This document shows, piece after piece, positions 2 through 62,711 of a stretch of DNA of 64,000 nucleotides (its first letter is position 1; every line of letters begins with the position of its first letter). Source of the stretch: Streptomyces sp. NBC_01264 (GTDB taxonomy: Bacteria; Actinomycetota; Actinomycetes; Streptomycetales; Streptomycetaceae). The stretch spans positions 4,960,001-5,024,000 of the forward strand of contig NZ_JAPEOX010000001.1 in the NCBI RefSeq assembly GCF_026340675.1, written 5' to 3'. A model generated the notes under the pieces. It made no database searches and was not told where the DNA came from. It saw only the letters and a program-made list of their open reading frames with translations. A program made the translations under genes and the position numbers.

Positions 2-1087
2 TCGGTGGTCGGCCCCTTCGCGGGAGTCCTGCTGGACCGCTGGCGCCGCCGCCAGGTCTTCCTCTACGGGAACCTGCTGCGGGCCTTCCTCGCCTGCGTC
101 ACCGGCATGCTGATCGTCGCGCAGGTTCCCGACTGGCTGTTCTACGCCTCGGCGCTGTCCGTGACCGCGGTCAACCGCTTCGTCCTGGCCGGGCTGGCCG
201 CCTCCCTGCCCCGGGTCGTCGCACCTGGCCAGCTAGTCACCGCGAACGCCCTCTCACCCACCGCGGGAACGCTCGCCGCGGTCGCCGGCGGGGGTCTGGC
301 CTTCCTCGTCCGGCTCATGGCCGACGAGTCCGACGCCCTGGTCGTGCTCCTCGGAGCCGGCCTCTACCTCTGTGCGGCCCTGGCCTCCCTGCACCTGGCC
401 CTGGACGTGCTCGGGCCCGACCACCCTCCCGGCCGGATCAACCCGACGGTCGTCCAGGGGATCGCCCTCACCGTGCGGGGCCTCGCCGAGGGACTGCGGC
501 ACCTGGCCTCCCGGCGCGAGGCGGCCCGGGCGCTCACCGCCATGACCGTCATGCGGTTCTGCTACGGCGCCCTGTTCGTCACGCTGCTCATGCTCTGCCG
601 CTACGCCTGGTCGGACAACGAGGCCGAGGGGCTCGCGCTGCTGGGCGTCACGGTCGGCGTGTCCGGGGCCGGGTTCTTCGCGGCCGCCGTCGTCACTCCC
701 TGGCTGGTGGGCCGACTGGGCCCGCTCGGCTCCATCACCCTGTGCGCCGCGGGGGCCGCGGTGCTGGTGCCGGCGCTCGGCCTGTTCTTCGCCCCCGGGC
801 CGATGCTGGCAGCAGCCTTCGTGCTGGGCCTGGCCACCCAGGGGGCCAAGATCTCCACCGACACCGTCGTGCAGTCCCAGATGGACGACGCCTTTCGCGG
901 CCGCGTCTTCTCGGTCTACGACGTGCTCTTCAACGCGGCCTTCGTCGGCGCCGCCGGGGTGGCCGCGCTCGTGCTCCCCCTCGACGGGCACTCCGTCCCC
1001 CTGATCCTCGGGGTGGCGACGCTGTACGCCGCGACCGCGGCGCTCCTCATGCGTCAGGGCGATGTTTCACGTGAAACATCGCCCTGA
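2..1087 (+). CDS. MFS transporter, 3' part (5' end outside window)
   Basis: C-terminal 361 residues of a major facilitator superfamily membrane transporter; the start lies before the window. The visible part opens with a motif-A-like loop (GVLLDRWRRRQ) followed by alternating hydrophobic segments, including AALFVTLLML-type and GAGFFAAAVV helices, and a late FRGRVFSVYD loop typical of MFS exporters. Substrate cannot be told from the sequence. The last codons run through a perfect parS site, giving the C-terminal peptide GDVSRETSP, and a second parS lies just after the stop. The gene converges on the CCA-adding enzyme gene. Family call is firm, function is open. Confidence 0.85.
   Translation, partial: SVVGPFAGVLLDRWRRRQVFLYGNLLRAFLACVTGMLIVAQVPDWLFYASALSVTAVNRFVLAGLAASLPRVVAPGQLVTANALSPTAGTLAAVAGGGLAFLVRLMADESDALVVLLGAGLYLCAALASLHLALDVLGPDHPPGRINPTVVQGIALTVRGLAEGLRHLASRREAARALTAMTVMRFCYGALFVTLLMLCRYAWSDNEAEGLALLGVTVGVSGAGFFAAAVVTPWLVGRLGPLGSITLCAAGAAVLVPALGLFFAPGPMLAAAFVLGLATQGAKISTDTVVQSQMDDAFRGRVFSVYDVLFNAAFVGAAGVAALVLPLDGHSVPLILGVATLYAATAALLMRQGDVSRETSP
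1064..1077. promoter_or_regulatory. parS site (ParB binding)
   Basis: Perfect 14-bp palindrome GTTTCACGTGAAAC, the streptomycete parS consensus. It lies inside the last codons of the MFS gene, read as DVSRET. Confidence 0.95.
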
Positions 1088-1105
1088 CCACCGCTCCGCC
1101 CCGAT

Positions 1106-1119
1106 GTTTCACGTGAAAC
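1106..1119. promoter_or_regulatory. parS site (ParB binding)
   Basis: Second perfect GTTTCACGTGAAAC palindrome, 28 bp after the previous one, in the short space between the convergent MFS and cca genes. The flanks (CCGAT..ATCGG) extend the palindrome and may also serve as a terminator stem. Confidence 0.95.
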
Positions 1120-1147
1120 ATCGGGGCTCCCTCAGGCCCTCAGTCCC

Positions 1148-2614
1148 TCAGTCCTGTGCGGCCCACCACTCCTTGAGCGCGGCGACCGCCGCGTCGTGCT
1201 CCATGGGGCCGTTCTCCAGCCGCAGTTCCAGCAGGAACGCGTAGGCCTTGCCGATCACCGGCCCGGGGCCCACGTCGAGGACCCTCATGATCTCGTTGCC
1301 GTCGAGGTCGGGCCGGATCGCATCCAGCTCCTCCCTCTCCTGCAGCTGGGCGATGCGTTCCTCCAGCCCGTCGTAGGTGCGGGAGAGCGCGTTCGCCTTG
1401 CGCTTGTTGCGCGTGGTGCAGTCGGAACGGGTCAGCTTGTGCAGACGGTCCAGCAGCGGACCGGCGTCGCGTACGTAGCGCCGCACGGCCGAGTCGGTCC
1501 ACTCCCCGTCCCCGTAGCCGTGGAAGCGCAGGTGCAGCTCCACCAGCCGGGCCACGTCCTTGATCATGTCGTTGGAGTACTTGAGCGCCGTCATGCGTTT
1601 CTTGGTCATCTTCGCGCCCACCATCTCGTGGTGGTGGAAGGAGACCCGTCCGTCGCTCTCGAACCGGCGGGTCCGGGGCTTACCGATGTCGTGCAGCAGG
1701 GCCGCGAGCCGCAGCACCAGGTCCGGGCCGTCCTCCTCCAGTGCGATCGCCTGCTCCAGCACGATCAGCGAGTGGTCGTAGACGTCCTTGTGCCGGTGGT
1801 GCTCATCGCTCTCCAGGCGCAGCGCCGGCAGCTCCGGCAGCACGTGCTCGGCCAGCCCCGTGTCCACGAGGAGGCCCAGGCCCTTGCGCGGGTGCGCGGA
1901 GAGCAGGAGCTTGTTCAGCTCGCCCTGGACCCGCTCGGCCGAGACGATCTCGATGCGGCCGGACATCTCCGTCATCGCCCTCACCACGTCCGGAGCGACC
2001 TCGAAGTCGAGCTGGGCGGCGAACCGTGCCGCCCGCAGCATCCGCAGCGGGTCGTCGGAGAAGGAGTCCTCGGCGGTGCCCGGGGTGCGCAGCACACCCG
2101 CCCGGAGGTCCTCCAGACCGCCGTGCGGGTCCACGAACTCCTTCTCGGGGAGAGCGACGGCCATCGCGTTCACCGTGAAGTCGCGGCGGACGAGGTCTTC
2201 CTCGATGGAGTCGCCGTAGGAGACCTCCGGCTTGCGCGAGGTCCTGTCGTAGGACTCCGAGCGGTACGTGGTCACCTCGATCTGGAAGCTTCTGTCAGCG
2301 TCTCCGACGCGGGCGTCCTTCTGGGCACCGACCGTGCCGAAGGCGATGCCGACGTCCCAGACCGAGTCGGCCCACGGCCTGACGATCTTCAGGACGTCCT
2401 CGGGGCGGGCGTCGGTGGTGAAGTCGAGGTCGTTGCCGAGGCGCCCGAGCAGCGCGTCGCGGACGGACCCGCCGACCAGGGCGAGCCGGAAACCCGCCTC
2501 CTGGAAACGGCGGCCGAGCTCGTCGGCGACAGGGGCGATGCGCAGCAGTTCACTCACCGCGCGGGCCTGCCCGTGATTCAGGACACTGGGGTTGTCTTCG
2601 TTGGCGTTCGGCAC
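1148..2614 (-). CDS. cca: CCA tRNA nucleotidyltransferase
   Basis: Adds or repairs the 3' CCA end of tRNAs from CTP and ATP in the cytoplasm. The product of 488 residues has the class II nucleotidyltransferase head (LVGGSVRDALLG near residues 46-57, then the metal-binding NDLDFTTDA), the RRDFTVNAMA motif, and a C-terminal HD domain (LAALLHDIGKP) as in the actinobacterial PcnA/Cca group. I chose the GTG at 2614 (protein begins VPNANEDNPS) because the frame remains open far upstream with no family similarity. The gene is divergent from the DUF6049 gene, the same arrangement as pcnA beside mviN in mycobacteria. Confidence 0.92.
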   Translation of the reverse strand: MPNANEDNPSVLNHGQARAVSELLRIAPVADELGRRFQEAGFRLALVGGSVRDALLGRLGNDLDFTTDARPEDVLKIVRPWADSVWDVGIAFGTVGAQKDARVGDADRSFQIEVTTYRSESYDRTSRKPEVSYGDSIEEDLVRRDFTVNAMAVALPEKEFVDPHGGLEDLRAGVLRTPGTAEDSFSDDPLRMLRAARFAAQLDFEVAPDVVRAMTEMSGRIEIVSAERVQGELNKLLLSAHPRKGLGLLVDTGLAEHVLPELPALRLESDEHHRHKDVYDHSLIVLEQAIALEEDGPDLVLRLAALLHDIGKPRTRRFESDGRVSFHHHEMVGAKMTKKRMTALKYSNDMIKDVARLVELHLRFHGYGDGEWTDSAVRRYVRDAGPLLDRLHKLTRSDCTTRNKRKANALSRTYDGLEERIAQLQEREELDAIRPDLDGNEIMRVLDVGPGPVIGKAYAFLLELRLENGPMEHDAAVAALKEWWAAQD

Positions 2615-2801
2615 AACAGAAAAGGGTACGTGCCCGGCCCGCCCGCAGCGCCCGTGTTTTGCGGCCACCCCGGCCCACGGCCGCTCCGGGGCGGACCCGA
2701 TCATGTGGAGCAAGGCGCGGCACTCGCGCACAGCGGGCCTCGTTACCATGCGTGGACGCACAAACGACGACCACTGACACTCCGAGGGACGGGCGAGCGC
2801 G

Positions 2802-5069
2802 TTGGCCGAGGCGGCAGACATCCAGGGGGCGCCCGCTCCTGCCCGGCGACGCTGGCTGCGGCGCGCGGTCGTCCTGCTCGCAGGGACGCCCGTACTCGCC
2901 GGCCTGGTCTACTCGCACGCTCCCGAAGCCCAGGCCGCCGACACGGCGGCCGCCGCCGTCGACGTCCAGCTCGACGGCATGGCGCCGAGCGCCCCGGTCA
3001 AGGGCGACACCCTCACCATCACGGGCACCGTGATCAACAACAGCTCCGAGAAGATCACCGACGCGCACGTGGGTCTGCGGGTCGGGCCGGTGCTGGGGGA
3101 CCGCAGCTCCATCGACGAAGCCGCGGACCGCGGCGCGTTCCGGGCGGGTGCCGACCCTGCAGAGGTCGGCGCCGAGTTCGCCGTGAAGATCGATTCGCTG
3201 CCCTCCAAGGTCAGCCAGCCCTTCACCCTCAAGGTGCCGGTGAACAAGCTGGACCTGGACGAGGACGGCGTCTACCAGCTCGGCGTCTCCTTGTCCGGAG
3301 AGACCGAGAGCCGCCAGTACGAGCAGGTCCTCGGCATCAAGCGGACCTTCCTGCCCTGGCAGCCGGAGGCCGCCGCCAAGCGTTCCCAGCTGTCGTACGT
3401 CTGGCCGTTGATCTCCACGACGCACCTGACCTCGGAGACCGGCTCGGACGAGCTGCAGACCCCCGTCTTCCTCGACGACGGTCTCGCCGACGAGCTGAAG
3501 CCGGGCGGGCGTCTGGAACAGATGGTCGCCCTCGGTAAGGACCTGCCCATCACCTGGGTCATCGACCCGGATCTGCTCTACACCGTCGACGCTATGACCA
3601 AGGGCTACCGGGTCCGCACCCCCGACGGCCGGACCGTCCCGGGCAAGAACAAGGCCGTCGCCGAACGGTGGCTCAGCGCGCTGGAAGGCGCCGTCCAGGG
3701 CAAGAAGGTCGTCGCACTGCCCTTCGCAGACCCGGACCTCGCCTCGCTCGCCCACCGCGGCAAGGACGTCTCCGGCACCCTGGGACAGCTGCGGCCCGCC
3801 ACCGACAAGGCGAGGGATGCCGTCGAGACGGTTCTGCACGTCCCCGCGAGCACCGACTTCTCCTGGCCCGTGGACGGGGCGATCGACCCTTCGATCGTGA
3901 ACGTCGCGACATCGGCCGGCGCCCACAAGGTCCTCACCCGCAGCGACAGCCTCCAGGAGACCGGCGCCCTGGGCTACACCCCGTCGGCCGCTCGGCCCAT
4001 CGGTGCGGGCACCACGGCCGTCGTCGCCGACGCCGACCTCTCCACCGCCTTCCGGGGCGACATGCTCCGCTCCGGGAACTCCACCCTCGCGGTGCAGCAG
4101 TTCCTCGCCCATACCCTCGCGCTGAACCTGCAGGACACCGACAACCAGCGCAGCTTCGTCGTCGCCCCGCAGCGGATGCCCAGCGCCAGCCAGGCGCAGA
4201 CGATGGCCGCCGCCATCCGGGGTCTGCAGTCGGGCCGGTGGAGCCAGGCCGTGGACCTGGAGGCGGCGGCCGCCGCGACGCCCGACCCGCGCGCGGCCAC
4301 CCAGGTCCCCGGGGCCGGCCAGTACCCCGAGGCACTGAGCAAGCAGGAACTGCCCGTCTCCGCCTTCGAGAAGATCCGCACCACCGAGACCACCCTCGAC
4401 CACTTCAAGGTGATCCTGACCGCGCCCGACCGGGTCAAGATCCCCTTCGGCAACACCACCAACCGGGAGATGTCCTCCTCGTGGCGCGCCCGCCCCGACG
4501 CGGCGCGGGAGTACCGGGACCAGGTGCAGGAGTACCTGATCCGGCTCACCGAGAAGGTCAAGATCATCCCTAAGTCCGACGCGACGCTCTCCGGACACAG
4601 CGCGACCATCCCGGTCACCGTCCAGAACAGCCTCGTCCAGGACACCCACAACCTGGTCCTGCGGCTGCGGTCCGCCAACCCGACCCGGCTGATGTTCGGC
4701 GACAGCGGTGAGGCCCAGCAGGAAGTCGCGATCCAGGGCGGGCACAGCCAGACCGTGAAGTTCCCGGCCATCGCCACCGCGAGCGGCCCGGTCGAGGTGA
4801 CGGCTCAGCTCTTCACCATCGACGGCGTGCCCTACGGTAAGGCCCGCAAGTTCACCGTCGAAGCCACCGAGGTGACCCCGACCGTCATGCTCGTCATCGC
4901 GGGCGGTGTCCTCCTCCTCGTGCTGGCCGGCATCAAGATGTACGCCAGCCGCAAGCGTGTAGCGGCACGCGCCGCCGCCGAGGAGAACACGCAGCAGAGT
5001 GACGAGTCCCCGGACACCGGACCGCAAAGCGCGGACCCGTCCGGCACGGGTGAGACAGTGGACCGTTGA
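2802..5069 (+). CDS. DUF6049 family secreted membrane-anchored protein
   Basis: Protein of 755 residues exported across the membrane. It has a basic N-terminus (ARRRWLRR near residue 15), a hydrophobic signal segment ending near PEAQAAD (about residue 45), a long outside region beginning with a beta-sandwich-like segment, and a C-terminal membrane helix (VMLVIAGGVLLLVLAGIKMY, about 695-715) followed by a basic then acidic cytoplasmic tail. It sits directly upstream of murJ, like Rv3909 upstream of mviN in M. tuberculosis, so a role in cell envelope assembly is likely but unproven. The start is TTG at 2802; no better start is seen downstream before the signal peptide. Confidence 0.85.
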   Translation: MAEAADIQGAPAPARRRWLRRAVVLLAGTPVLAGLVYSHAPEAQAADTAAAAVDVQLDGMAPSAPVKGDTLTITGTVINNSSEKITDAHVGLRVGPVLGDRSSIDEAADRGAFRAGADPAEVGAEFAVKIDSLPSKVSQPFTLKVPVNKLDLDEDGVYQLGVSLSGETESRQYEQVLGIKRTFLPWQPEAAAKRSQLSYVWPLISTTHLTSETGSDELQTPVFLDDGLADELKPGGRLEQMVALGKDLPITWVIDPDLLYTVDAMTKGYRVRTPDGRTVPGKNKAVAERWLSALEGAVQGKKVVALPFADPDLASLAHRGKDVSGTLGQLRPATDKARDAVETVLHVPASTDFSWPVDGAIDPSIVNVATSAGAHKVLTRSDSLQETGALGYTPSAARPIGAGTTAVVADADLSTAFRGDMLRSGNSTLAVQQFLAHTLALNLQDTDNQRSFVVAPQRMPSASQAQTMAAAIRGLQSGRWSQAVDLEAAAAATPDPRAATQVPGAGQYPEALSKQELPVSAFEKIRTTETTLDHFKVILTAPDRVKIPFGNTTNREMSSSWRARPDAAREYRDQVQEYLIRLTEKVKIIPKSDATLSGHSATIPVTVQNSLVQDTHNLVLRLRSANPTRLMFGDSGEAQQEVAIQGGHSQTVKFPAIATASGPVEVTAQLFTIDGVPYGKARKFTVEATEVTPTVMLVIAGGVLLLVLAGIKMYASRKRVAARAAAEENTQQSDESPDTGPQSADPSGTGETVDR

Positions 5070-5115
5070 GCGATGCCGTGGCCGGTCGGCCTGGGGACGA
5101 TGAGGTGGGGTTTCG

Positions 5116-7293
5116 ATGAACGCGCCGTACGAAGGTGACCGTGCGCAGGGCACTGGCGGGCCCGCGCCCTCCCAGGGCACTGCCCCCGGCGCCCCGGTGC
5201 CGGGACAGGTTCCCGCGCCCGCGCAAGCGCCGGACCACGACCCCTATGTCCAGGACGCCTACGCCTACGACCCGTACCGGGCGCAGGACCTGTCCGCCCA
5301 GGACCCGGTTGCGGAAGTCCTGTACGACCGTGCCTCGCACCCGCCGCCACCGCCCGGCACCTTCCAGGAGCCCGGTCCGCTCTACGCGGCCCCGCCGACC
5401 CCCTCCTACGCCCCGGACCCCCGGGTGTGGGCCCAGACTCCGCCGCCCGAGCCGGACGGCCCCTCCCGGCACCTGCCCTACGGCGACCACGCGACGACCA
5501 CGCAGTTCGTCGGCGTGGACTCCCTCGTGACCAAGGCCACCGACCAGGACCCCCGCCCCGACGCCTTCGCCCACCTGTACCGGGACCAGGACGCGGCGCC
5601 GCACACCTCCGCCGAGGACGCCCCCGTGGCCGCCCCGGCACCGAGCAAGCCCGCCGGACGCGCCTCCAGCCTGCTCAAGTCCAGCGCCCTGATGGCCGCC
5701 GGCACCATCGTCTCCCGCATCACCGGCTTCATGCGGACCCTGGTGATCGCCGGAGCCATCGGCGTCGCCACCCTCAACGACAGCTACCAGGTCGCCAACA
5801 CCCTGCCGACGATGATCTACGTCCTGGTCGGCGGCGGCGCCCTCAACGCCGTCTTCATCCCGCAGTTGGTACGCGCGATGAAGAACGACGAGGACGGGGG
5901 AGAGGCCTACGCCAACCGCCTGCTGACGCTCGTCATGGTCCTGCTGGGCGCCGTCACCGTGGTCTGTGTGCTCGCCGCACCGCTGTTCATCGGCATGATG
6001 TCGCAGAAGATCGCCGACGACCCGGCACGGCTGGACGTCGCCGTCGCCTTCGCCCACTACTGCCTGCCCACCATGTTCTTCATGGGTGTGCACGTGGTCC
6101 TCGGTCAGATCCTCAACGCCCGCGGCCGGTTCGGCGCGATGATGTGGACCCCGGTCCTCAACAACATCGTCGTCATCGCCACCTTCGGCGCCTTCATCTG
6201 GGCCTTCGGCGGCTTCACCACCACGGGCGTCACCGAGGCCGGCATCACCCCCGAGGGCGTCCGGCTGCTGGGCCTGGGCACCCTGCTCGGCCTCGTCGTC
6301 CAGTCCCTGGCGATGCTTCCGTACCTGCGCGACGCCGGCTTCAGGCCGCGCCTGCGCTTCGACTGGAAGGGCCACGGCCTCGGCAAGGCCGCCGGCCTGG
6401 CCAAGTGGACGTTCTTCTTCGTCCTCGCCAACCAGCTCGGCCTCATCGTCGTCACCCAGCTCGCCACCTGGGCGGGCGAGGTGGCCGACAAGCAGGGCCA
6501 CGGCGGTACCGGCATCACCGGCTACAACTACGCCCTGCTGCTCTGGCAGATGCCGCAGGCCATCATCACCGTCTCCGTCATGACCGCCGTCCTGCCGCGC
6601 ATCTCCCGGTCGGCCCACGACGGCGACGCCGCCGCCGTCCGCGACGACATCTCCTACGGACTGCGCACCTCGGCCGTCGCGATCGTGCCCTGCGCCTTCG
6701 CGTTCCTCGCCCTCGGCGTCCCCATGGCCGGCCTGCTCTACGCCGGTTCCGGTTCCCAGAGCGCCCAGAACATCGGTTTCATCCTGATGGCCTTCGGCCT
6801 CGGACTGATCCCCTACTCCGTCCAGTACGTGGTCCTGCGCGGCTTCTACGCCTACGAGGACACCCGGACGCCCTTCTACAACACGGTCATCGTGGCCGCC
6901 GTCAACGCGAGCATGTCAGCCGTCGCGTTCTTCGTGCTCCCCGCCCGCTGGGCCGTCGTCGGCATGGCCGCCGCCTACGGCCTCGGCTACGCCGTGGGCG
7001 TCGGTGTCGCCTGGCGCCGACTGCGCACCCGCCTCGGCGGCGACCTCGACGGGGCGCACGTGATGCGCACCTACACCCGGCTCATCGGCGCCTGCGTCCC
7101 AGCCGCCGCGGTGGCCGGGGCCGTCGCCTTCGCCGTCCTGCACTTCATCGGCAACGGGGCCCTCGGTTCCCTCACCGCCCTGGTGGCCGGCGGCATCTCC
7201 CTGGCGGCGGTGTTCCTCGTCGCCGCCAAGAAGATGCGCATCGAAGAACTCAACGCCATGGTCGGGATGGTCCGCGGACGCCTGGGACGCTGA
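5116..7293 (+). CDS. murJ: Lipid II flippase MurJ (MviN)
   Basis: Integral membrane protein of 725 residues of the MATE/MOP superfamily that flips lipid II to the outer face for peptidoglycan synthesis. An N-terminal cytoplasmic region of about 185 residues is rich in Pro, Tyr and Ala; the MurJ core then begins (SALMAAGTIVSRITGFMRTL near residues 193-212) with about 14 helices. The N-terminal extension is a streptomycete habit. It ends just before the pseudokinase gene. In mycobacteria flippase and pseudokinase are one polypeptide; here murJ stops at GMVRGRLGR with a TGA, so they are separate. Confidence 0.93.
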   Translation: MNAPYEGDRAQGTGGPAPSQGTAPGAPVPGQVPAPAQAPDHDPYVQDAYAYDPYRAQDLSAQDPVAEVLYDRASHPPPPPGTFQEPGPLYAAPPTPSYAPDPRVWAQTPPPEPDGPSRHLPYGDHATTTQFVGVDSLVTKATDQDPRPDAFAHLYRDQDAAPHTSAEDAPVAAPAPSKPAGRASSLLKSSALMAAGTIVSRITGFMRTLVIAGAIGVATLNDSYQVANTLPTMIYVLVGGGALNAVFIPQLVRAMKNDEDGGEAYANRLLTLVMVLLGAVTVVCVLAAPLFIGMMSQKIADDPARLDVAVAFAHYCLPTMFFMGVHVVLGQILNARGRFGAMMWTPVLNNIVVIATFGAFIWAFGGFTTTGVTEAGITPEGVRLLGLGTLLGLVVQSLAMLPYLRDAGFRPRLRFDWKGHGLGKAAGLAKWTFFFVLANQLGLIVVTQLATWAGEVADKQGHGGTGITGYNYALLLWQMPQAIITVSVMTAVLPRISRSAHDGDAAAVRDDISYGLRTSAVAIVPCAFAFLALGVPMAGLLYAGSGSQSAQNIGFILMAFGLGLIPYSVQYVVLRGFYAYEDTRTPFYNTVIVAAVNASMSAVAFFVLPARWAVVGMAAAYGLGYAVGVGVAWRRLRTRLGGDLDGAHVMRTYTRLIGACVPAAAVAGAVAFAVLHFIGNGALGSLTALVAGGISLAAVFLVAAKKMRIEELNAMVGMVRGRLGR

Positions 7294-7410
7294 TGCGTAC
7301 AACCTTCCCCCTCTCTGGCGTGTCGTGCAGATCGGTGGACTGTGGGCACAATTGGCATGGCTTCGCAGACTGGCCGACAGCGCGCAACGGATGGGGAGGC
7401 GGGGACGACG

Positions 7411-9150
7411 GTGGCGGAACGTAGCACGGCTGCCGTCGACGTGGCCGACAACAGCGGCGACGAGCCGCTGGCCGCGGAGACGGCCCAGGCCACGGCCGAC
7501 GGGGTGGACACCCAGAACGGACAAGCCGCGGACGGAACCATGCCCGAGAAGGACGGCGATCGCAGGGACGCGGCACCCGCTGCCGCGCCCACGGCCGCAC
7601 CCGAGCTGCACAGCGGCCACAAACTGGCCAGACGCTACCGGCTCGAAGAGTGCGTCACCCGTCTGGACGGATTCAGCAGCTGGCGCGCGATGGACGAGAA
7701 GCTGCGCCGGGCCGTGGGCGTGCACCTGCTGCCCGCCGACCACCCGCGGGCCCGCTCCGTCCTGGCCGCCGCCCGTTCATCGGCCCTGCTCGGCGACCCC
7801 CGGTTCGTCCAGGTCCTCGACGCCGTCGAGGAGAACGACCTCGTCTACGTCGTCCACGAGTGGCTGCCCGACGCCACGGAGCTCACCGCGGTCCTCGCCG
7901 TGGGCCCCATGGAGCCGCACGAGGCCTACCAGCTCGTCAGCCAGGTCTCCCAGGCCATGGCCGCCGCACACCGCGAGGGCCTCGCGCACCTGCGCCTGAC
8001 GCCCAGCGCGATACTGCGCACCTCCACGGGCCAGTACCGCATCCGCGGCCTCGCCGTGAACGCCGCCCTGCGCGGCATCACCAGCGAGACCCCGCAGCGC
8101 GCGGACACCGAGGCCATCGGCGCTCTGCTGTACGCCTCGCTGACCCAGCGCTGGCCGTACGAGAACGACGCCTACGGCCTCACCGGCCTGCCCAAGGGCG
8201 TCGGCCTGATCGCCCCCGACCAGGTCCGCGCGGGCGTGCACCGGGGTCTGGGCGAGCTGGCCATGCGCGCCCTCGCCAACGACGGGGCCACCGCCTCGCG
8301 GCAGGAACCCGCCTGCACCACCCCGGAGGAGCTCTCCAAGGCCGTGGCCGCGATGCCCCGCATCCGGCCGCCGGAGCCCACGTTCACGGCGCCTCCGGAG
8401 TACCAGCACACCACCTACCAGCAGGGCAGCTACGGCAGGCCCCAGGGCCCCGGCATGCCCACCGCGCAGGTCCTCACCGTCGTCCCCCCGCCGCCGCCCC
8501 TGCAGAGCCGGACCGGCCGCGTCCTCAAGTGGGGCGTCGCGGCCCTGCTGATCGCCGCCCTCGGGCTGGGCAGCTGGCAGCTCGCCGACACCCTGCTCAA
8601 CCGCAACAACCAGGGCAGCACCAGCGGCAGTCAGACCACGCACGAGAAGGCCGACGACGCCCCGGAGAAGAAGGAGCCCACGCTCCTCTCCATCAAGGGC
8701 GCGCAGGAGTACTACCCCGACGGCGTGGCCCAGGACGCCGGCAACGTGGGGAACACCTTCGACGGTGACGCCACCACCTACTGGCGCACCAAGAGCTTCC
8801 GCGACGGCCCCGCGATGGCGCAGGACTACAAGGCCGGCGTCGGCATCGTCTACGATCTCGGCTCCGAGCAAGCGGTCAACGGCGCTTCGATAGCGCTGAA
8901 GTACGCCGGCAACCACACGACCGTCACGCTCTACGCGGCCAACTCCATGTCCTCGTCGACCCCGGTCGGCTCCATGAAGAAGATCGCGACCAGCACCACG
9001 TCGGACAGCACGCTCAAGGCGACCACCGACGCACCGGTCACAACGCGCTACGTCGTCGTCTGGATCACGGCGATGCCGCAAGCCGGCAGCGACACGTACA
9101 GCGGAGCGGGGTTCAAGCAGGCCATCACGGACGTGAAGTTCACGGGCTGA
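7411..9150 (+). CDS. Membrane-anchored pseudokinase with discoidin-like outside domain
   Basis: 579 residues from GTG at 7411. The N-terminal half follows a Ser/Thr kinase fold (HKLARRYRLEECVTRLDGFS onward), but the catalytic HRD..N loop is replaced by AHLRLTPSAI and the DFG motif by IRGLAVN, so it should not be an active kinase. A Pro-rich linker, a membrane helix (WGVAALLIAALGLGSWQLA, about residues 370-390) and an outside beta domain (FDGDATTYWRT, YVVVWITAM) resembling F5/8 type C or carbohydrate-binding modules follow. This matches the C-terminal half of mycobacterial MviN, whose phosphorylated pseudokinase recruits FhaA. Alternative starts are ATG 7357 and GTG 7342. Confidence 0.85.
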   Translation: MAERSTAAVDVADNSGDEPLAAETAQATADGVDTQNGQAADGTMPEKDGDRRDAAPAAAPTAAPELHSGHKLARRYRLEECVTRLDGFSSWRAMDEKLRRAVGVHLLPADHPRARSVLAAARSSALLGDPRFVQVLDAVEENDLVYVVHEWLPDATELTAVLAVGPMEPHEAYQLVSQVSQAMAAAHREGLAHLRLTPSAILRTSTGQYRIRGLAVNAALRGITSETPQRADTEAIGALLYASLTQRWPYENDAYGLTGLPKGVGLIAPDQVRAGVHRGLGELAMRALANDGATASRQEPACTTPEELSKAVAAMPRIRPPEPTFTAPPEYQHTTYQQGSYGRPQGPGMPTAQVLTVVPPPPPLQSRTGRVLKWGVAALLIAALGLGSWQLADTLLNRNNQGSTSGSQTTHEKADDAPEKKEPTLLSIKGAQEYYPDGVAQDAGNVGNTFDGDATTYWRTKSFRDGPAMAQDYKAGVGIVYDLGSEQAVNGASIALKYAGNHTTVTLYAANSMSSSTPVGSMKKIATSTTSDSTLKATTDAPVTTRYVVVWITAMPQAGSDTYSGAGFKQAITDVKFTG

Positions 9151-9176
9151 CGGACGGCAGGGGGAGGGGCCCAGCG

Positions 9177-9878
9177 TTGGACGAAGCCACACCCGGCGGC
9201 CGCAGCGACCGGGAACTCCTGTCGCTGCACGCCGCCGGAGACCCGAATGCCTTCGGTGAGCTCGTGCGCAGGCACCGGGACCGGCTGTGGGCCGTGGCCC
9301 TGCGCACCCTCGGCGACCGGGAGGAAGCCGCCGACGCCGTGCAGGACGCCCTCGTCTCCGCCTACCGGGCCGCCCACACCTTCCGCGGCGAATCCGCCGT
9401 CACGACCTGGCTGCACCGCATCACCGTGAACGCCTGCCTGGACCGGGCCCGCAAGGCGGCCTCCCGCAGGACCTCCCCGATCGACGACACGGACCGCCTG
9501 GAGCGCCTTCTGGAGCCCCACGAGTCCGCCGAGGCACCCGCGGAGCGCCAGGACCTCCACCGGCAGCTACTGGCCGCCCTGAGCACCCTCCCGGCCGATC
9601 AGCGGGCCGCTCTGGTCCTCGTCGACATGCAGGGCTACCCCGTCGCCGAGGCCGCCGCCGTCCTCGACGTCCCCGTCGGCACCGTGAAGAGCCGCTGCGC
9701 CCGCGGCAGGGCGAAACTCGTCCCGCTCCTCACTCATCTGCGCACGCATACCGGGGATAACACCGATACCGAGCGGGGAAGGAACCGGACACCGGGGACA
9801 ACCGTCCCACCGGCGGCAGACCGCGGGGACCGGACCCCGGATCCCAAAGCAGTGAAGGGCGGAGGTGGACGAGCGTGA
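9177..9878 (+). CDS. sigM: ECF RNA polymerase sigma factor, SigM family
   Basis: Group IV sigma factor of 233 residues. Region 2 is clear (LVRRHRDRLWAVALRTLGDR, then DAVQDALVSAYRAAHTF) and region 4 carries the HTH (LSTLPADQRAALVLVDMQGY, then VPVGTVKSRCARGRAKL). The start is TTG at 9177 behind a strong GGGGAGGGG ribosome site. The stop overlaps the start of the anti-sigma gene by 4 nt (GTGA), so the two are coupled. Position between the MviN-type genes and trxB is as for sigM (Rv3911) of M. tuberculosis. Note that the S. coelicolor gene usually called sigM/rsmA is another locus. The last 50 residues are a disordered tail. Confidence 0.9.
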   Translation: MDEATPGGRSDRELLSLHAAGDPNAFGELVRRHRDRLWAVALRTLGDREEAADAVQDALVSAYRAAHTFRGESAVTTWLHRITVNACLDRARKAASRRTSPIDDTDRLERLLEPHESAEAPAERQDLHRQLLAALSTLPADQRAALVLVDMQGYPVAEAAAVLDVPVGTVKSRCARGRAKLVPLLTHLRTHTGDNTDTERGRNRTPGTTVPPAADRGDRTPDPKAVKGGGGRA

Positions 9879-10843
9879 ATCCCCCAACCGGCGCGACCGG
9901 CACGATCGGGCACCCCGACGTCTCGGAGATCTCCGAGCTGGCGGAAGGCCTCCTCTCCCCGTCCCGCACGGCGGAGGTGCGCAGCCATCTCGGCGGCTGC
10001 CCCCTGTGCGCGGACGTCCGTGCCTCCCTCGAGGAGATCCGGGCCCTGCTCGGCACCCTCCCCGGTCCCGCCCGGATGCCCGTCGACATCGCCGGCCGGA
10101 TCGACGCGGCCCTCGCCGCCGAAGCGCTCCTCGACGCCACCACCCCGCACGGGGAGCCCGGACCCACCGAACCCGCCGGACCGGCCGGACCGGCCCGGGC
10201 CGCCGACGGGGGCCCCGGCCCCGATGTTTCACGTGAAACCGCCCCCGACCCCCTCGGTCCCGGCGGAGCCCTGCGGCCCTCCGGTCACCCGACCGGCCCA
10301 ACCGGCCCCGGGCGCCGTCGCGCACGCCGCCGGATCGCTCTCGCGGGCGGACTGCTCGCAGCGTGCGCCGCCGGAGCCCTGGTGTTCGGTCTGACGTCAG
10401 GCGACCGCACCGGGCAGGACTCCCTGCTGAGCGACACATCCACCGCACGGTCCAGGTCCGGCTCGCCCGAGTACACGGCGCAGGGGCTCCCCGGCACGGT
10501 GCGCGACCTTCTCGCGTCCTCCGCCCGGGGAGACAAGGCGGCGGGGGAGCGGAACAACACCTTCGGAGTGGAGAACAGCCCCGCGTCCGAACCGAGCGCC
10601 GCCCCGGCCGACGGCAGGGATCCCGGGGCACCCGCCTGCGTCCTGCAGGCCACCGGCCGCACCGAGACCCCGCTGGGCTTCGAGTCCGGCACCTACGAGG
10701 GCAAGGACGTCTTCCTCGTCGTCCTGCCCCACCCCGGGAACCCCGCCTCCGTGGACGCCTATCTCATCGGCTCCGCCTGCGCCACCGACCCCTCGGCCGA
10801 TCCCGGAAAGCCCCTGCTCACCAGCACCTATCCCAGGAGCTGA
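9875..10843 (+). CDS. Zinc-finger anti-sigma factor, membrane-spanning
   Basis: Probable anti-sigma factor for the upstream ECF sigma factor, 322 residues. The N-terminal domain has a ZAS-like motif, H-x3-C-x2-C in HLGGCPLCADVR (about residues 34-46). A Pro/Gly-rich linker of about 60 residues, one membrane helix (RIALAGGLLAACAAGALVFG, about 151-170) and an outside domain with one Cys pair follow. The linker contains a perfect parS site read as PDVSRETAP at about residues 116-124. The GTG start overlaps the sigM stop, so translation is coupled. Equivalent in place to mycobacterial RsmM (Rv3912). Confidence 0.86.
   Translation: MNPPTGATGTIGHPDVSEISELAEGLLSPSRTAEVRSHLGGCPLCADVRASLEEIRALLGTLPGPARMPVDIAGRIDAALAAEALLDATTPHGEPGPTEPAGPAGPARAADGGPGPDVSRETAPDPLGPGGALRPSGHPTGPTGPGRRRARRRIALAGGLLAACAAGALVFGLTSGDRTGQDSLLSDTSTARSRSGSPEYTAQGLPGTVRDLLASSARGDKAAGERNNTFGVENSPASEPSAAPADGRDPGAPACVLQATGRTETPLGFESGTYEGKDVFLVVLPHPGNPASVDAYLIGSACATDPSADPGKPLLTSTYPRS
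10226..10239. promoter_or_regulatory. parS site (ParB binding)
   Basis: Perfect GTTTCACGTGAAAC palindrome inside the anti-sigma factor gene, in codons for its disordered linker (DVSRET). Confidence 0.95.
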
Positions 10844-10871
10844 CAGACCCGGAAGGCCGGGGGGACAACTC

Positions 10872-10898
10872 GGGAATGCAGGCGCCGTAGGATCCGTT
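10872..10898 (+). promoter_or_regulatory. SigR-type promoter of trxBA
   Basis: GGGAAT at 10872-10877, an 18-bp spacer, then GTT at 10896-10898. This fits the Streptomyces sigma-R consensus (GGGAAT-N18-GTT) exactly. It lies 70 bp before the trxB start. In S. coelicolor trxBA is a known SigR target under disulfide stress. Confidence 0.88.
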
Positions 10899-10968
10899 GG
10901 GTGGGGTGAGAGTCCACACCGGCCCCCCGGTAGGCAGCAGGCAGTCCGCAGAGACGAGGAATCAACCC

Positions 10969-11928
10969 GTGAGCGACGTACGAAACGTGATCATCATCGG
11001 CTCCGGGCCGGCCGGTTACACGGCCGCCCTGTACACCGCACGCGCTTCGCTCAAGCCCCTGGTCTTCGAAGGCGCCGTCACCGCCGGTGGCGCGCTGATG
11101 AACACCACCGAGGTGGAGAACTTCCCCGGCTTCCAGGACGGCATCATGGGGCCGGACCTCATGGACAACATGCGCGGCCAGGCCGAGCGCTTCGGCGCCG
11201 AGCTGATCCCCGACGACGTCGTGGCCGTGGACCTCACCGGCGAGATCAAGACCGTCACCGACACCGCCGGCACCGTGCACCGCGCCAAGGCCGTGATCGT
11301 GACCACCGGCTCCCAGCACCGCAAACTCGGCCTGCCCAACGAGGACGCCCTCTCCGGCCGCGGCGTCTCCTGGTGCGCGACCTGCGACGGATTCTTCTTC
11401 AAGGACCACGACATCGCCGTGATCGGCGGCGGCGACACCGCGATCGAGGAAGCCACCTTCCTCTCCCGGTTCGCCAAGTCCGTCACGATCGTCCACCGCC
11501 GCGACTCGCTGCGCGCCTCCAAGGCCATGCAGGACCGCGCCTTCGCCGACCCGAAGATCTCGTTCGCCTGGGACAGCGAGGTCGCGGAGATCCACGGCGA
11601 GCAGAAGCTCACGGGTCTCACCCTGCGCAACACCAAGACCGGTGAGACCTCCGCGCTGCCCGTGACCGGGCTCTTCATCGCCGTCGGCCACGACCCGCGC
11701 ACCGAGCTGTTCAAGGACCAGCTCGACCTCGACGCCGAGGGCTACCTCAGGGTCGACGCCCCCTCCACCCGCACCAGCCTCACCGGTGTGTTCGGCGCGG
11801 GCGACGTGGTCGACCACACCTACCGTCAGGCCATCACCGCCGCGGGCACGGGTTGCTCCGCGGCCCTCGACGCCGAGCGCTTCCTCGCCGCCCTCGCGGA
11901 CGCCGAGAAGGCGCACGCAGCGGTCTGA
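10969..11928 (+). CDS. trxB: Thioredoxin reductase
   Basis: FAD- and NADPH-dependent reductase of thioredoxin, 319 residues, cytoplasmic. The FAD-binding GxGxxG is at the N-terminus ([12 protein letters not shown]), the redox pair is C136-A-T-C139 in WCATCDG, the NADPH-binding motif is [12 protein letters not shown], and the second FAD motif is [17 protein letters not shown] chose GTG at 10969 because a GACGAGGA ribosome site precedes it and the FAD motif begins shortly after. trxA follows 53 bp later, forming an operon from the SigR-type promoter. Confidence 0.95.
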
Positions 11929-11981
11929 CACCCTCAAGCAGCACCACACCCCACTCCCCGCAGGAAAAGAAGGAGGCCGCT

Positions 11982-12320
11982 GTGGCCGGCACCCTCAAGA
12001 CCGTCACCGACGCAAGCTTCGATGACGACGTCCTCAAGAGCACCAAGCCCGTCCTGGTGGACTTCTGGGCCGCCTGGTGCGGTCCGTGCCGCCAGATCGC
12101 CCCCTCCCTCGAGGCCATCGCCGCCGAATACGGCGACGAGATCGAGATCGTCAAGCTCAACATCGACGAGAACCCGGAGACGGCGGCCAAGTACGGCGTC
12201 ATGTCCATCCCGACCCTGAACGTCTACCAGGGCGGCGATGTCGTCAAGACGATCGTCGGCGCCAAGCCGAAGGCCGCCATCCTCCGCGACCTCGACGGCT
12301 TCGTCACCATCAAGGGCTGA
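11982..12320 (+). CDS. trxA: Thioredoxin
   Basis: Small disulfide reductase of 112 residues. The active site is C33-G-P-C36 in FWAAWCGPCRQI, and the conserved cis-Pro loop is MSIPTLNVY. Start GTG at 11982 with AAGGAGG eight bases upstream. It is the second gene of trxBA, supplies electrons for ribonucleotide reductase, methionine sulfoxide reductase and protein repair, and should be induced with trxB by SigR. A strong terminator follows. Confidence 0.95.
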   Translation: MAGTLKTVTDASFDDDVLKSTKPVLVDFWAAWCGPCRQIAPSLEAIAAEYGDEIEIVKLNIDENPETAAKYGVMSIPTLNVYQGGDVVKTIVGAKPKAAILRDLDGFVTIKG

Positions 12321-12356
12321 CGCACCCGCGTCCGGCAACGGACGCCCTCGCGTGAC

Positions 12357-12390
12357 AACGGGGCCGCCCCCAGCCAGGGGCGGCCCCGTT
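12357..12390 (+). terminator. Terminator after trxA
   Basis: Perfect 14-bp inverted repeat AACGGGGCCGCCCC with a 6-base loop, 36 bp after the trxA stop, between convergent trxA and the GNAT gene. It lacks a real T-run, as usual in Streptomyces, and may work in both directions. Confidence 0.75.
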
Positions 12391-12429
12391 CGCATGCCCG
12401 GCCGGTCCGGAACAGGACCGCTCCCCGTC

Positions 12430-13047
12430 TCACAGCGGACGCAGCGCCGGCTCCTTCCGGGCCGCACCCAGCAACCGGTCCAGCGCCAGTTCCACGTCTT
12501 CCTTCCACGACAGCGTGGACCGCAGCTCCAGCCGCAGCCGGGGACGCGTCGGATGCGGGCGTACCGTCTTGAAGCCCACGGCCAGCAGATGGTCAGCCGG
12601 CAGCAGACAGGCCGGACCGTCCCACCGGGCGTCACCGAACGCCTCGATCGCCCGGAACCCCCTGCGCAGCAGATCCTTCGCCACCGTCTGGACCATCACC
12701 CGCCCCAGCCCCTGCCCCTGATACCCCGGCATGATCCACGAGGTGATGAGCAGTACGGCATCCGGGGACGCCGGGCTGGTCGGGAACGCGGTCGCACGCG
12801 GCACGTATGCCGGCGGCGCGTACAGAACGAACCCCACGGGAACCTCGTCCACGTAGACCACCCGGCCGCACGAGCCCCACTCCAGGAGGACGGCGGAGAT
12901 CCACGCCTCCTTCTCCTCAGCAGGGTTCCCCGCCTTCACGGCGGCCTCACCGCTGACGGGGTCCAGCTCCCAGAAGACACAGGACCGGCAACGCCGGGGC
13001 AGGTCTTGAAGGTTGTCCAGCGTGAGCGGTACCAGCCGACGACCCAT
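12430..13047 (-). CDS. GNAT family N-acetyltransferase
   Basis: Protein of 205 residues. It has the GNAT acetyl-CoA motif (ITSWIMPGYQGQGLGRVMVQ, about residues 105-124) and the preceding beta strands (VVYVDEVPVGFVLYAPP). A Cys pair near the N-terminus (PRRCRSCVFWELDPVSG) is a streptomycete feature of this subfamily and may bind metal or be redox active; that is inference. The acceptor substrate is unknown. It lies just downstream of parB on the same strand, where streptomycetes keep this gene. Start ATG at 13047. A near-consensus DnaA box (GTATCCACA, 13057-13065) sits just before it. Confidence 0.85.
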   Translation of the reverse strand: MGRRLVPLTLDNLQDLPRRCRSCVFWELDPVSGEAAVKAGNPAEEKEAWISAVLLEWGSCGRVVYVDEVPVGFVLYAPPAYVPRATAFPTSPASPDAVLLITSWIMPGYQGQGLGRVMVQTVAKDLLRRGFRAIEAFGDARWDGPACLLPADHLLAVGFKTVRPHPTRPRLRLELRSTLSWKEDVELALDRLLGAARKEPALRPL

Positions 13048-13097
13048 GACCGCATCGTATCCACAGCTCGAATCACCCGAAACCGCGACAAGGCAAA

Positions 13098-13137
13098 GGG
13101 GCGGGCCGCACCGGCTCACACCGGCACGACCCGCCCC
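13098..13137 (-). terminator. Probable terminator after parB
   Basis: Stem GGGGCGGG/CCCGCCCC with an inner CCGG..CCGG hairpin, 12 bp after the parB stop and before the GNAT gene. One mismatch in the stem; no T-run. Confidence 0.5.
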
Positions 13138-13148
13138 CAGACTGTGGG

Positions 13149-14243
13149 TTACTCCCCGGCAGCGCCCTGGTCCAGCACCCGGCCCTCGCCCGGCGCCAGG
13201 GTCCCCAGAATCCGCTCCAGGTCCTCCATCGATGCGAACTCGACGGTGATCTTGCCCTTCTTCTGGCCCAGATCGACCTTCACCCGCGTCTCGAACCGGT
13301 CCGACAACCGCGTCGCGAGCTCGTTGAGCGCGGGCGCGACCCGGGCACCCGCTCGCGGACCCTTCGGCTTCACCGCACTCGGCGACTCCGCACCCAGCAG
13401 CGCCACGATCTCCTCGACCGCACGCACCGACAGCCCCTCGGCCACGATCCGGTGCGCCAGACGGTCCTGCTCCTCGGAGTTGTCCACCGACAGCAGCGCC
13501 CGCGCGTGCCCCGCCGAGAGCACACCCGCCGCCACCCGCCGCTGCACGGGCGGGGAGAGCTTCAGCAGACGCAGCGTGTTCGACACCTGCGGACGGGAAC
13601 GCCCGATCCGGTCCGCCAGCTGATCGTGCGTGCAGTTGAAGTCATGGAGCAGCTGGTCGTACGCGGCCGCCTCCTCCAGGGGATTCAGCTGCGCCCGGTG
13701 CAGGTTCTCCAGGAGCGCGTCCAGCAGCAGCTTCTCGTCGTCCGTGGCCCGGATGATCGCCGGAATACGGTCCAGGCCGGCCTCCCGGCACGCCCGCCAG
13801 CGCCGCTCGCCCATGATCAGCTCGTAGCGGCCCGGTCCGGACTGGCGCACCACGACCGGCTGGAGCAGACCCACCTCCTGGATGGAGGTCACCAGCTCGG
13901 CCAGCGCGTCCTCGTCGAACACCTCGCGCGGCTGCCGCGGGTTCGGCGTGATGGAGTCCATCGGGAGTTCCGCGAACGTGGCCCCCGCCACCTCGCCCGC
14001 CTGCGGAGCGGCAACCGGCTCCGGCACGCTCACGAGCGCGGACACCGGCGATGTTTCACGTGAAACATCGGCCTGCGCCAGCGAAGCCAGCTTCGCCGCG
14101 GCGACGCCCCGCTCCGACGGCAGCACCGGCACCGCCGACGGAGACGTCGACCCGGAACCGATCACCGGCGGCACCTTCTCCTGGGGAGCCGCGGGAATCA
14201 GCGCGCCGAGCCCCCGCCCCAGCCCCCTACGTCGCTCACTCAC
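13149..14243 (-). CDS. parB: Chromosome segregation protein ParB
   Basis: CTP-dependent DNA-sliding clamp of 364 residues that loads at parS and builds the segregation complex near oriC. It has the conserved N-terminus ([14 protein letters not shown]), a disordered linker, box I ([20 protein letters not shown]), the CTP-binding [13 protein letters not shown] motif, the HTH region ([17 protein letters not shown]) and the C-terminal dimerisation domain. The start is GTG at 14243, which overlaps the parA stop by 4 nt. The linker region itself encodes a perfect parS (ADVSRETSP). A DnaA-box-like TTGTCCACC lies at 13480-13488 in the coding region. Confidence 0.96.
14053..14066. promoter_or_regulatory. 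parS site (ParB binding)
   Basis: Perfect GTTTCACGTGAAAC inside parB, in the codons for its N-terminal disordered linker, read as DVSRET. Confidence 0.95.
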
Positions 14244-15331
14244 TGGATCCCCTCCGCCATGCTCTGCGTGTTGTTCATGCCCGCACCCTGATGGGGGTGC
14301 TGGGGGTCGTACTGGAATCCGGCCCCGCGCAGCGCGATCTCCCGCGCTGCCTCCAGATAGGAGAGGGAACCGCTGGAACCCGGGTCGTACGTCAGCACCG
14401 TCTGACCGTAGCTCGGAGCCTCCGAGATGCGGACCGACCGCGGGATGCTCGTGCGCAGCACCTCCTTGCCGAAGTGAGTGCGCACCTCCTCCGCCACCTG
14501 CGAGGCCAGCCGGGTCCTGCCGTCGTACATCGTCAGCAGGATCGTGGACACGTGCAGCGTCGGGTTCAGGTGGGCCCGCACCAGGTCCACGTTGCGCAGC
14601 AGCTGACCCAGCCCCTCCAGCGCGTAGTACTCGCACTGGATCGGGATCAGCACCTCCGCGCCCGCGACCAGGGCATTCACCGTGAGCAGGCCCAGCGAGG
14701 GCGGGCAGTCGATCAGGATGTAGTCCAGCGGCTGCTCGTACGCCTGGATGGCCCGCTGGAGACGGCTCTCCCGTGCGACCAGGGACACCAGCTCGATCTC
14801 GGCACCCGCCAGGTCGATCGTGGCCGGCGCACAGAAGAGCCCCTCCACGTCGGCCACCGGCTGGACGACCTCCATCAGCGGGCGGCTGTCGACCAGCACG
14901 TCATAGATGGACGGCACGTCCGCGTGGTGGTCGATGCCCAGCGCCGTGGAGGCATTGCCCTGCGGGTCGAGGTCGACCACCAGGACCCGCGCACCGTGCA
15001 GGGCCAGGGATGCGGCCAGGTTCACGGTCGACGTGGTCTTGCCCACGCCGCCCTTCTGGTTGGCCACCACCATGATCCGGGTCTTCGGGGGCCTGGGCAG
15101 GCCCTCACCCGCACGCCCCAGGGCCTCGACCGCGATCTGGGCGGCCCGGCCGATGGGCGTGTCTTCGTTGTCCACTAGGGGCGGGGCCGATGTTTCACGT
15201 GAAACATCGGCGCCCGGGGATTCAGAACGGGGACCGGGGACCGGATCGGCCATCGGCCCCGCAAGGTTGGCGTCTGACCGCACGGTGTCACTCTCCTCGG
15301 CATCAGGCTCGCGATGAACAGAGCCTGCCAT
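14240..15331 (-). CDS. parA: Chromosome partitioning ATPase ParA
   Basis: Walker-type ATPase that positions ParB-parS complexes, and in Streptomyces organises segregation in sporulating aerial hyphae. The deviant Walker A motif is [10 protein letters not shown] (about residues 113-122), followed by [12 protein letters not shown] and [13 protein letters not shown] chose ATG at 15331 (363 residues, [10 protein letters not shown]), which fits other streptomycete ParA proteins. The frame stays open to a GTG at 15493 that overlaps a parS; TTG at 15394 has a purine-rich GAAGGGGGGACGGAG before it and is a serious alternative. The N-terminal extension contains a parS read as ADVSRETS. Confidence 0.93.
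15192..15205. promoter_or_regulatory. parS site (ParB binding)
   Basis: Perfect GTTTCACGTGAAAC inside the 5' part of parA, read as DVSRET in the poorly conserved N-terminal extension. Confidence 0.95.
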
Positions 15332-15477: not shown

Positions 15478-15491
15478 GTTTCACGTGAAAC
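15478..15491. promoter_or_regulatory. parS site (ParB binding)
   Basis: Perfect GTTTCACGTGAAAC in the parA-rsmG intergenic region, about 150 bp upstream of the chosen parA start. ParB bound here could affect parAB transcription. Confidence 0.95.
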
Positions 15492-39188: not shown

Positions 39189-39202
39189 GTTTCACGTGAA
39201 AC
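39189..39202. promoter_or_regulatory. parS site (ParB binding)
   Basis: Perfect GTTTCACGTGAAAC between the hairpin and the end of the MFS gene, with flanks CCGAT/ATCGG extending the palindrome. Confidence 0.95.
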
Positions 39203-62675: not shown

Positions 62676-62689
62676 GTTTCACGTGAAAC
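62676..62689. promoter_or_regulatory. parS site (ParB binding)
   Basis: Perfect GTTTCACGTGAAAC, first of a close pair upstream of the J-domain gene. Confidence 0.95.
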
Positions 62690-62697
62690 CGGTGGAT

Positions 62698-62711
62698 GTT
62701 TCACGTGAAAC
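62698..62711. promoter_or_regulatory. parS site (ParB binding)
   Basis: Perfect GTTTCACGTGAAAC, 8 bp after the previous copy (22 bp centre to centre, about two helix turns). It lies 18 bp before a TAGGCT -10-like hexamer of the J-domain gene. Confidence 0.95.

Follow-up and report, generated by a model that had tools for sequence, protein, structure and literature searches.

parS copies in the window and in the genome

The window analysed here is a stretch of 64,000 nucleotides from Streptomyces sp. NBC_01264 (GCF_026340675.1, contig NZ_JAPEOX010000001.1, positions 4,960,001 to 5,024,000), which holds parA, parB and nine copies of the chromosome segregation site parS (Table 1). A search allowing up to 2 mismatches, with 0.03 matches expected, returned these nine, all of them exact copies of the 14-mer GTTTCACGTGAAAC. 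The core can be read in a VSRET frame, in an FHVK frame, or in a third frame that contains TGA. Four of the nine copies lie within open reading frames (ORFs), and every one is in the VSRET frame; the other five were called intergenic. A preliminary description of the window had noticed the common frame of the copies in the MFS, anti-sigma, parB and parA genes, and this is confirmed. The copy at 15192 was not counted by the gene caller, which put the parA start at 15175, downstream of the site. It is taken as coding because the upstream residues DPVPGPR.. are in frame and are common to Streptomyces parA relatives. The MFS tail at 1064 is read as a translated hairpin, since its flanks are the arms of a 36-nt palindrome.

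Table 1. parS copies and associated features; positions are those of the window unless a locus is named.
Feature	Position	Strand	Description
MFS transporter gene	ORF 5-1087	+	gene start left of window
Palindrome, 36 nt	1053..1088		1064 parS central; arms encode flanking Q-G-D and S-P-stop; hairpin -29.1 kcal/mol, z -9.4
parS	1064..1077		last codons of MFS transporter gene; peptide GDVSRETSP, then stop
Hairpin with 1106 parS as apex	about 1098-1127		arms covary between species
parS	1106..1119		intergenic, between convergent MFS gene and gene 1148-2614
CCA-transferase-like gene (our reading)	1148-2614	-	
Anti-sigma-like gene	9875..10843	+	322 aa; zf-HC2 at 19-45; VSRET = residues 118-122
parS	10226..10239		linker of anti-sigma-like gene
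parB	13149..14243	-	364 aa; ParB_N 90-182, HTH_ParB 185-281, ParB_C 304-349
parS	14053..14066		parB linker preceding ParB_N domain
parA	14240..15331	-	AAA_31 at 85-260 of ORF; start uncertain, 15331 or 15253
parS	15192..15205		N-terminal tail of parA
parS	15478..15491		upstream of parA, called intergenic; FHVK-frame extension of parA ORF passes through
parS	39189..39202		intergenic, with hairpin arms
parS pair	62676..62711 (62676-62689 and 62698-62711)		both intergenic
parS supplying called start codon	L021:1504, L175:8019, L183:6497, L188:6559, L124:2209, L133:2245, L134:2245, L135:1501		
parS TGA as gene stop	L024:8808, L180:7476, L180:7497, L188:6524, L196:6971, L218:4448, L219:4561, L222:4459, L223:12675, L226:4239		

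Exact copies in the source genome total 26 and all fall between 4.83 and 5.30 Mb of contig C1, with parB within the cluster. Besides the four in the window, two were called intragenic, in a histidine kinase gene (L016:3831) and a CopCD gene (L019:7381), both in the VSRET frame; elsewhere one copy lies across a gene start and one supplies the stop TGA of a gene. The identification as parS is based on the palindrome TGTTTCACGTGAAACA or its 14-bp core, present as nine exact cores in the window and 26 in the genome, and on the clustering in one chromosome region with parA and parB. The base before the core is T (or C) in most copies, and the base after it is most often A. Judged by sequence, the copies are probably chromosomal parS sites that are kept by selection on the DNA and would be bound by ParB. 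The available text of PMC8743542 gives 22.8 parS on average for Streptomyces chromosomes, and that of PMC12511625 reports 17 ParB-bound parS sites in S. venezuelae. The present copies resemble the Streptomyces ParABS sites of PMC8743542 in their exact core, their number and their one-region cluster with parA and parB; the available text of that paper differs in treating number and location, not frame or gene overlap.

Reading frame of intragenic copies

Distinct exact copies were surveyed over all loci collected; a copy was dropped if it stood 25 bases or less from the end of its locus, and those sharing an identical 64-base context were merged. The resulting 651 copies (509 from Streptomyces and 142 from other actinobacteria) comprise 404 intergenic, 229 intragenic, 10 stop-overlapping and 8 start-overlapping ones, as called by our own gene caller. 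All 229 intragenic copies are in the VSRET frame and none is in the FHVK frame. The preliminary description had proposed this tabulation, with equal use of the MFHVK frame as the contrary outcome; the count is 229 to 0, with FHVK at no more than eight gene starts. It had also given the peptide as DVSRET, of which VSRET holds in 229 of 229 copies and D in 91, the remaining residues at that place including H (33), P (24), R (17), A (13), S (12) and G (11). The D is encoded by a flanking GAT, and GAT before the core with ATC after it is found at the intergenic copies 1106 and 39189 as well.

The other two frames were met only at the edges of genes. FHVK occurs at the starts of CydCD-like, TrkA-like and RsmG genes (8 copies), where the caller picked the GTG within the core; at least three RsmG cases (L124, L133, L134) also have an ATG just before it, which gives an N-terminal MFHVK as read from the flanks. 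The third frame occurs at gene ends (10 exact copies), where parS gives the stop TGA and the proteins end in ..CFT, ..SFT, ..RFT or ..GFT. Five near misses in the FHVK frame with 2-3 mismatches, four reading LHVKP in similar proteins and one LLVKL elsewhere, were taken as chance. An overly strict test, which requires coding signal on the two flanks and recovers 51 of 186 known intragenic copies, picked out no copy among 310 intergenic Streptomyces ones, whichever sense frame was tried. Exact copies number 117 per 1,407,765 coding versus 250 per 402,808 non-coding positions (not deduplicated).

The loci are a non-random set, fetched by parB (best 80 of 583 relatives), by parS, and as 36 kinase and CopCD orthologues (L239-L274) that supply most of the 35 intragenic kinase and CopCD copies. 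The DNA genome searches covered this phylum. Within the Streptomyces loci from the best 80 of 583 parB relatives, 120 of 350 copies are intragenic, all 120 VSRET. Another 19 genomes (G013, G056 and 17 other actinobacteria) gave 17 of 107, all VSRET, with one intragenic and one other copy counted twice through the overlap of L185 and L186, and 66 short loci (L107-L172) gave 41 of 117, again all VSRET; these three sets overlap one another. The caller is a simple in-house program, seeded on GC-rich genes and weak on low-GC loci, and in a phylum sample of 26 new loci (L147-L172, L150 being Streptomyces) it made intragenic calls in L153 only. Because some N-terminal extensions are missed (the window parA; L203:7196), intragenic copies are undercounted, and calls at the RsmG N-end depend on the locus, one copy being intragenic in L118 and intergenic as L206.

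Selection on the site and tolerance of the peptide

Selection on the parS DNA, filtered presumably by how well a protein tolerates the translated peptide, is in our view the best explanation, with a probability of about 0.8 that includes the identity of the copies as parS. A parS would persist inside a gene only where its peptide is tolerated. The TGA-bearing reading could only end a gene, FHVK, with its large aromatic side chain and start codons in frame, would be confined to gene starts, and VSRET, small and hydrophilic, would suit tails, linkers and turns. Sites would come and go by point substitution, gene ends would drift over fixed sites, and second copies also turn up within added segments.

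The VSRET frame is found at seven well-supported protein positions, namely the ParA tail, ParB linker, anti-sigma linker, MFS tail, kinase, CopCD linker and RsmG C-end, and at two weak ones, the RsmG N-end and a 734-aa ORF in L198 without a Pfam match. A serious alternative is that all intragenic copies go back to a few ancient sites, in which case common descent would account for most of the frame's uniformity and no further cause would be required. An inherited site retains its frame automatically, copies in the ParA tail are spread over many actinobacterial families, and several non-Streptomyces loci have one in the ParB linker. Nevertheless, at least seven unrelated protein positions agree, MFS tails differ within Streptomyces (the window clade, L225 and L228), and the linker of Bacillus Spo0J is a different one. 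Shared descent as the whole account is regarded as unlikely, yet well worth keeping in mind.

In disordered windows VSRET is preferred to FHVK[LPHQR] 28.5 to 1 by amino-acid composition and 4.5 to 1 by codon usage. At 28.5 to 1, nine of nine positions in one frame would be expected about 73% of the time, so that peptide tolerance suffices and phased insertion is unneeded. Two other causes were tried and rejected. By codon usage the overall VSRET/FHVK ratio is 0.51 (0.33 with site residues masked), which favours FHVK. For mutational accessibility, the supply of near misses of VSRET and FHVK is about even in disorder-prone windows (13 v 12 at five mismatches, 74 v 98 at six) and favours FHVK over VSRET in all coding DNA (53 v 11, 442 v 101 and 2707 v 823 at 4, 5 and 6 mismatches). 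Alternatively, FHVK may be avoided in genes for its in-frame ATG and GTG starts, which would yield truncated proteins, and not for a harmful peptide. It is true that the FHVK frame stands exactly where a start is useful, at the eight gene starts, but the composition ratio of 28.5 to 1 would by itself give about 97% VSRET, and an internal translation start also requires a ribosome-binding site. Avoidance of starts is considered improbable as the cause.

Tolerance is consistent with the surroundings of the sites. At 117 Streptomyces sites, with the site residues excluded, the mean TOP-IDP disorder score is 0.282 versus a background of 0.111, and the median site ranks at the 94th percentile within the protein that holds it. 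Among Streptomyces relatives the linkers surrounding the site are highly variable.

How the sites arise can be followed in orthologues. parB linkers were extractable in 60 of 81 loci, and 34 of them have the exact site; 12 of the 26 others hold a relic with 1-2 mismatches in the same frame, and in eight of these relics the peptide is altered (VSHET in four, VSYET, VSRGT, VSRES and VPRET in one each). In ten hand-picked parB pairs, one member having the site and the other lacking it, no gap was seen over the 14 positions; the partner is a relic in six, and in four (L034, L036 twice, L040) it is diverged and the alignment less certain. The kinase has the exact site at the same residue in 14 of 18 relatives, and of the four site-less orthologues three (L253-L255) are gap-free there and one has an extra segment. 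Because alignment to parB and kinase orthologues that lack the site needs no gap there, sites appear to arise or decay by substitution, and this is the outcome of the comparison that the preliminary description had recommended for deciding between substitution and insertion. CopCD has the exact site at the aligned place in 13 of 18 relatives, within a variable linker, and L262 has a VSRET nearby.

The end of the MFS gene was compared in 23 loci. The protein ends in DVSRETSP in the window and L213-L216 and in VDVSRET in L225, and L228 has two VSRET in its tail. Five genes (L218, L219, L222, L223, L226) stop at the TGA within parS, and five (L217, L220, L221, L224, L185) stop upstream of an intergenic parS; six (L178, L227, L229-L232) have no copy in the 110 bases past the stop. 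The MFS stop codons thus seem to slide over an unmoved site.

These comparisons bear on the suggestion, made in the preliminary description, that a mobile 14-mer (or slightly longer unit) was inserted repeatedly with one preferred phase. Second copies in two kinase genes, doublets in anti-sigma genes and three copies in the parA of L112 would fit it. However, the clean unit-length gap expected of a mobile element was found neither in the ten chosen parB pairs nor in three of the four site-less kinases, six of the parB partners are products of decay by 1-2 changes, and at the MFS gene the site stays fixed and the stop codon moves. Repeated phased insertion is contradicted for parB and the kinase, and as a general origin it is very improbable. 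Among the parB relics (L047, L066, L085; L063, L064, L091, L096, L097) the changes cluster at two central bases, and the forms GTTTCACGGGAAAC and GTTTCACATGAAAC recur in several species, which may be due to common ancestry or repeated mutation, or mark weaker functional sites. In four kinases (L247, L248, L251, L252) extra segments of about 11-14 residues follow just past the site, with a second VSRET in the last two.

The peptide appears to follow the DNA. A count over the scanned genes, not deduplicated, gives 184 VSRET encoded by the exact site and three by a one-mismatch site; a single further one, within the ParA core of L138, uses other codons. The caller overlooked another two one-mismatch copies in parB. 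At each of its four wobble positions the site has A or T, contrary to codon bias. As VSRET comes almost solely from the site and its wobble bases run against codon bias, conservation is of the DNA, and the peptide seems to come along as a by-product. Together with the variable linkers and the sliding MFS ends, this bears out the earlier proposal that the proteins accommodated a fixed DNA site. It is hardly credible that VSRET is selected as a useful peptide, for instance a docking or phosphorylation motif: the same peptide does occur in several proteins, including ParA and ParB, and four of the 12 parB relics are silent, but a single VSRET stems from unrelated codons, eight of the 12 relics alter it, and copies outside genes match just as exactly as those inside. 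Because the wobble positions carry the site against codon bias, synonymous recoding of parB and parA can tell the function of the DNA from that of the peptide.

Several observations weigh against the proposed selection on DNA with tolerance as its filter. Most of the 229 copies are orthologous, so that independent origins are few, about seven to nine, and the chance of a common frame, were the two frames equal, is 2^-7 for seven positions and 2^-9 for nine, which is suggestive and not overwhelming. The flexible setting, which the preliminary description held to be universal, is usual, and only 36.8% of site surroundings lie above the 0.30 cut. Folded cores, which it had named as the places where a site would count against it, furnish one case: the kinase site, at residue 412, is inside the folded HATPase_c domain (383-492). 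It is flanked by a TVTA stretch and DDGPG and, going by the family fold, may be a beta-hairpin turn. The four silent parB relics (L047, L066, L082, L085) keep VSRET, as a peptide-level view would likewise expect. Second copies within added segments of the kinases L251 (VSRETSLAPRANVSRET) and L252 indicate that insertion or duplication happens, and anti-sigma doublets occur in L049, L059, L061, L070 and L073. Finally, a 949-aa gene of the source genome (L024:11910-14759) contains a one-mismatch copy, GTTTCACGTGGAAC, that is in the third frame. This variant has TGG in place of TGA, and an exact copy lies about 5 kb away.

A similar arrangement may extend beyond actinobacteria. Among the best 120 of 7997 Bacillus Spo0J matches, 118 carry V[SP]RET (VPRET in 110, VSRET in 8) and none FHV[KE]; in seven inspected it lies near residue 219. 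The DNA beneath it we take to be parS, which would place a parS within the spo0J coding sequence as well. The best 120 ParB relatives of the window include 106 with VSRET and none with FHV[KE]. parS sites as such are known, and the available text of PMC2346475 describes a parS inside the coding sequence of mycobacterial parA, an arrangement like the present one; no frame rule is given in that text, and here the rule spans at least seven protein positions. Nor was a frame rule for intragenic parS found in literature titles and the beginnings of abstracts, or in the available text of PMC8743542, PMC7022226 and PMC12511625, and a term search of PMC7614844 gave no match. For DVSRET and MFHVK no papers were found, and those on VSRET are unrelated by title.

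Hairpins and overlapping functions

Some copies are embedded in hairpins. Perfect arms of at least 6 bp beyond the core were sought at 491 distinct Streptomyces copies, with mispaired arms as control. They flank 25 of 137 copies between convergent genes (mispaired 0.9%), 5 of 177 tandem intergenic copies (1.3%), 2 of 10 divergent ones, 17 of 154 intragenic ones (4.2%) and none of the 13 that overlap gene edges. At the MFS junction in 16 loci, with one copy chosen where a locus had several, 44 cells are changed on both sides versus 20.9 in shuffles and at most 20 with a slid partner. Counted as pairs with a change on both sides, the signal is weaker (10 vs 8.3, reached by 34 of 500 shuffles). 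The MFS-junction hairpins (window 1053-1127; L185, L213-L226) have parS at the apex and look like bidirectional terminators built on parS.

In the window the 1106 hairpin is a GC-rich stem-loop at a gene end, with -25 kcal/mol and z -7.0. No T-run directly follows its stem, the next sequence being TCCCTCAGGCCC, and the copies 10226 and 15478 gave no strong hairpin when folded. The covarying arms around the MFS-junction parS are like those of terminator hairpins between convergent genes; the window copy differs from these in having no T-run after the hairpin. A terminator-like role of such hairpins may be suspected from these features, and the hairpin-embedded intergenic copies raise the possible use of parS at transcript ends.

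More broadly, though with a good deal of reservation, parS might act as a general overlapping code, in which selection for a segregation site dictates the coding and RNA features around it. Such a code, tentative as it is, would use VSRET inside proteins, FHVK for starts, the third frame for stops and perhaps the hairpin apex for transcript ends. The frame rule is a simple, testable statement of how a segregation site coexists with protein-coding sequence, and V[SP]RET in ParA, ParB and the products of neighbouring genes can serve as a protein-level marker of intragenic centromere-like sites. L193 (G200:C12), from a non-Streptomyces actinobacterium, has nine exact parS in about 8 kb, eight of which were called intergenic.

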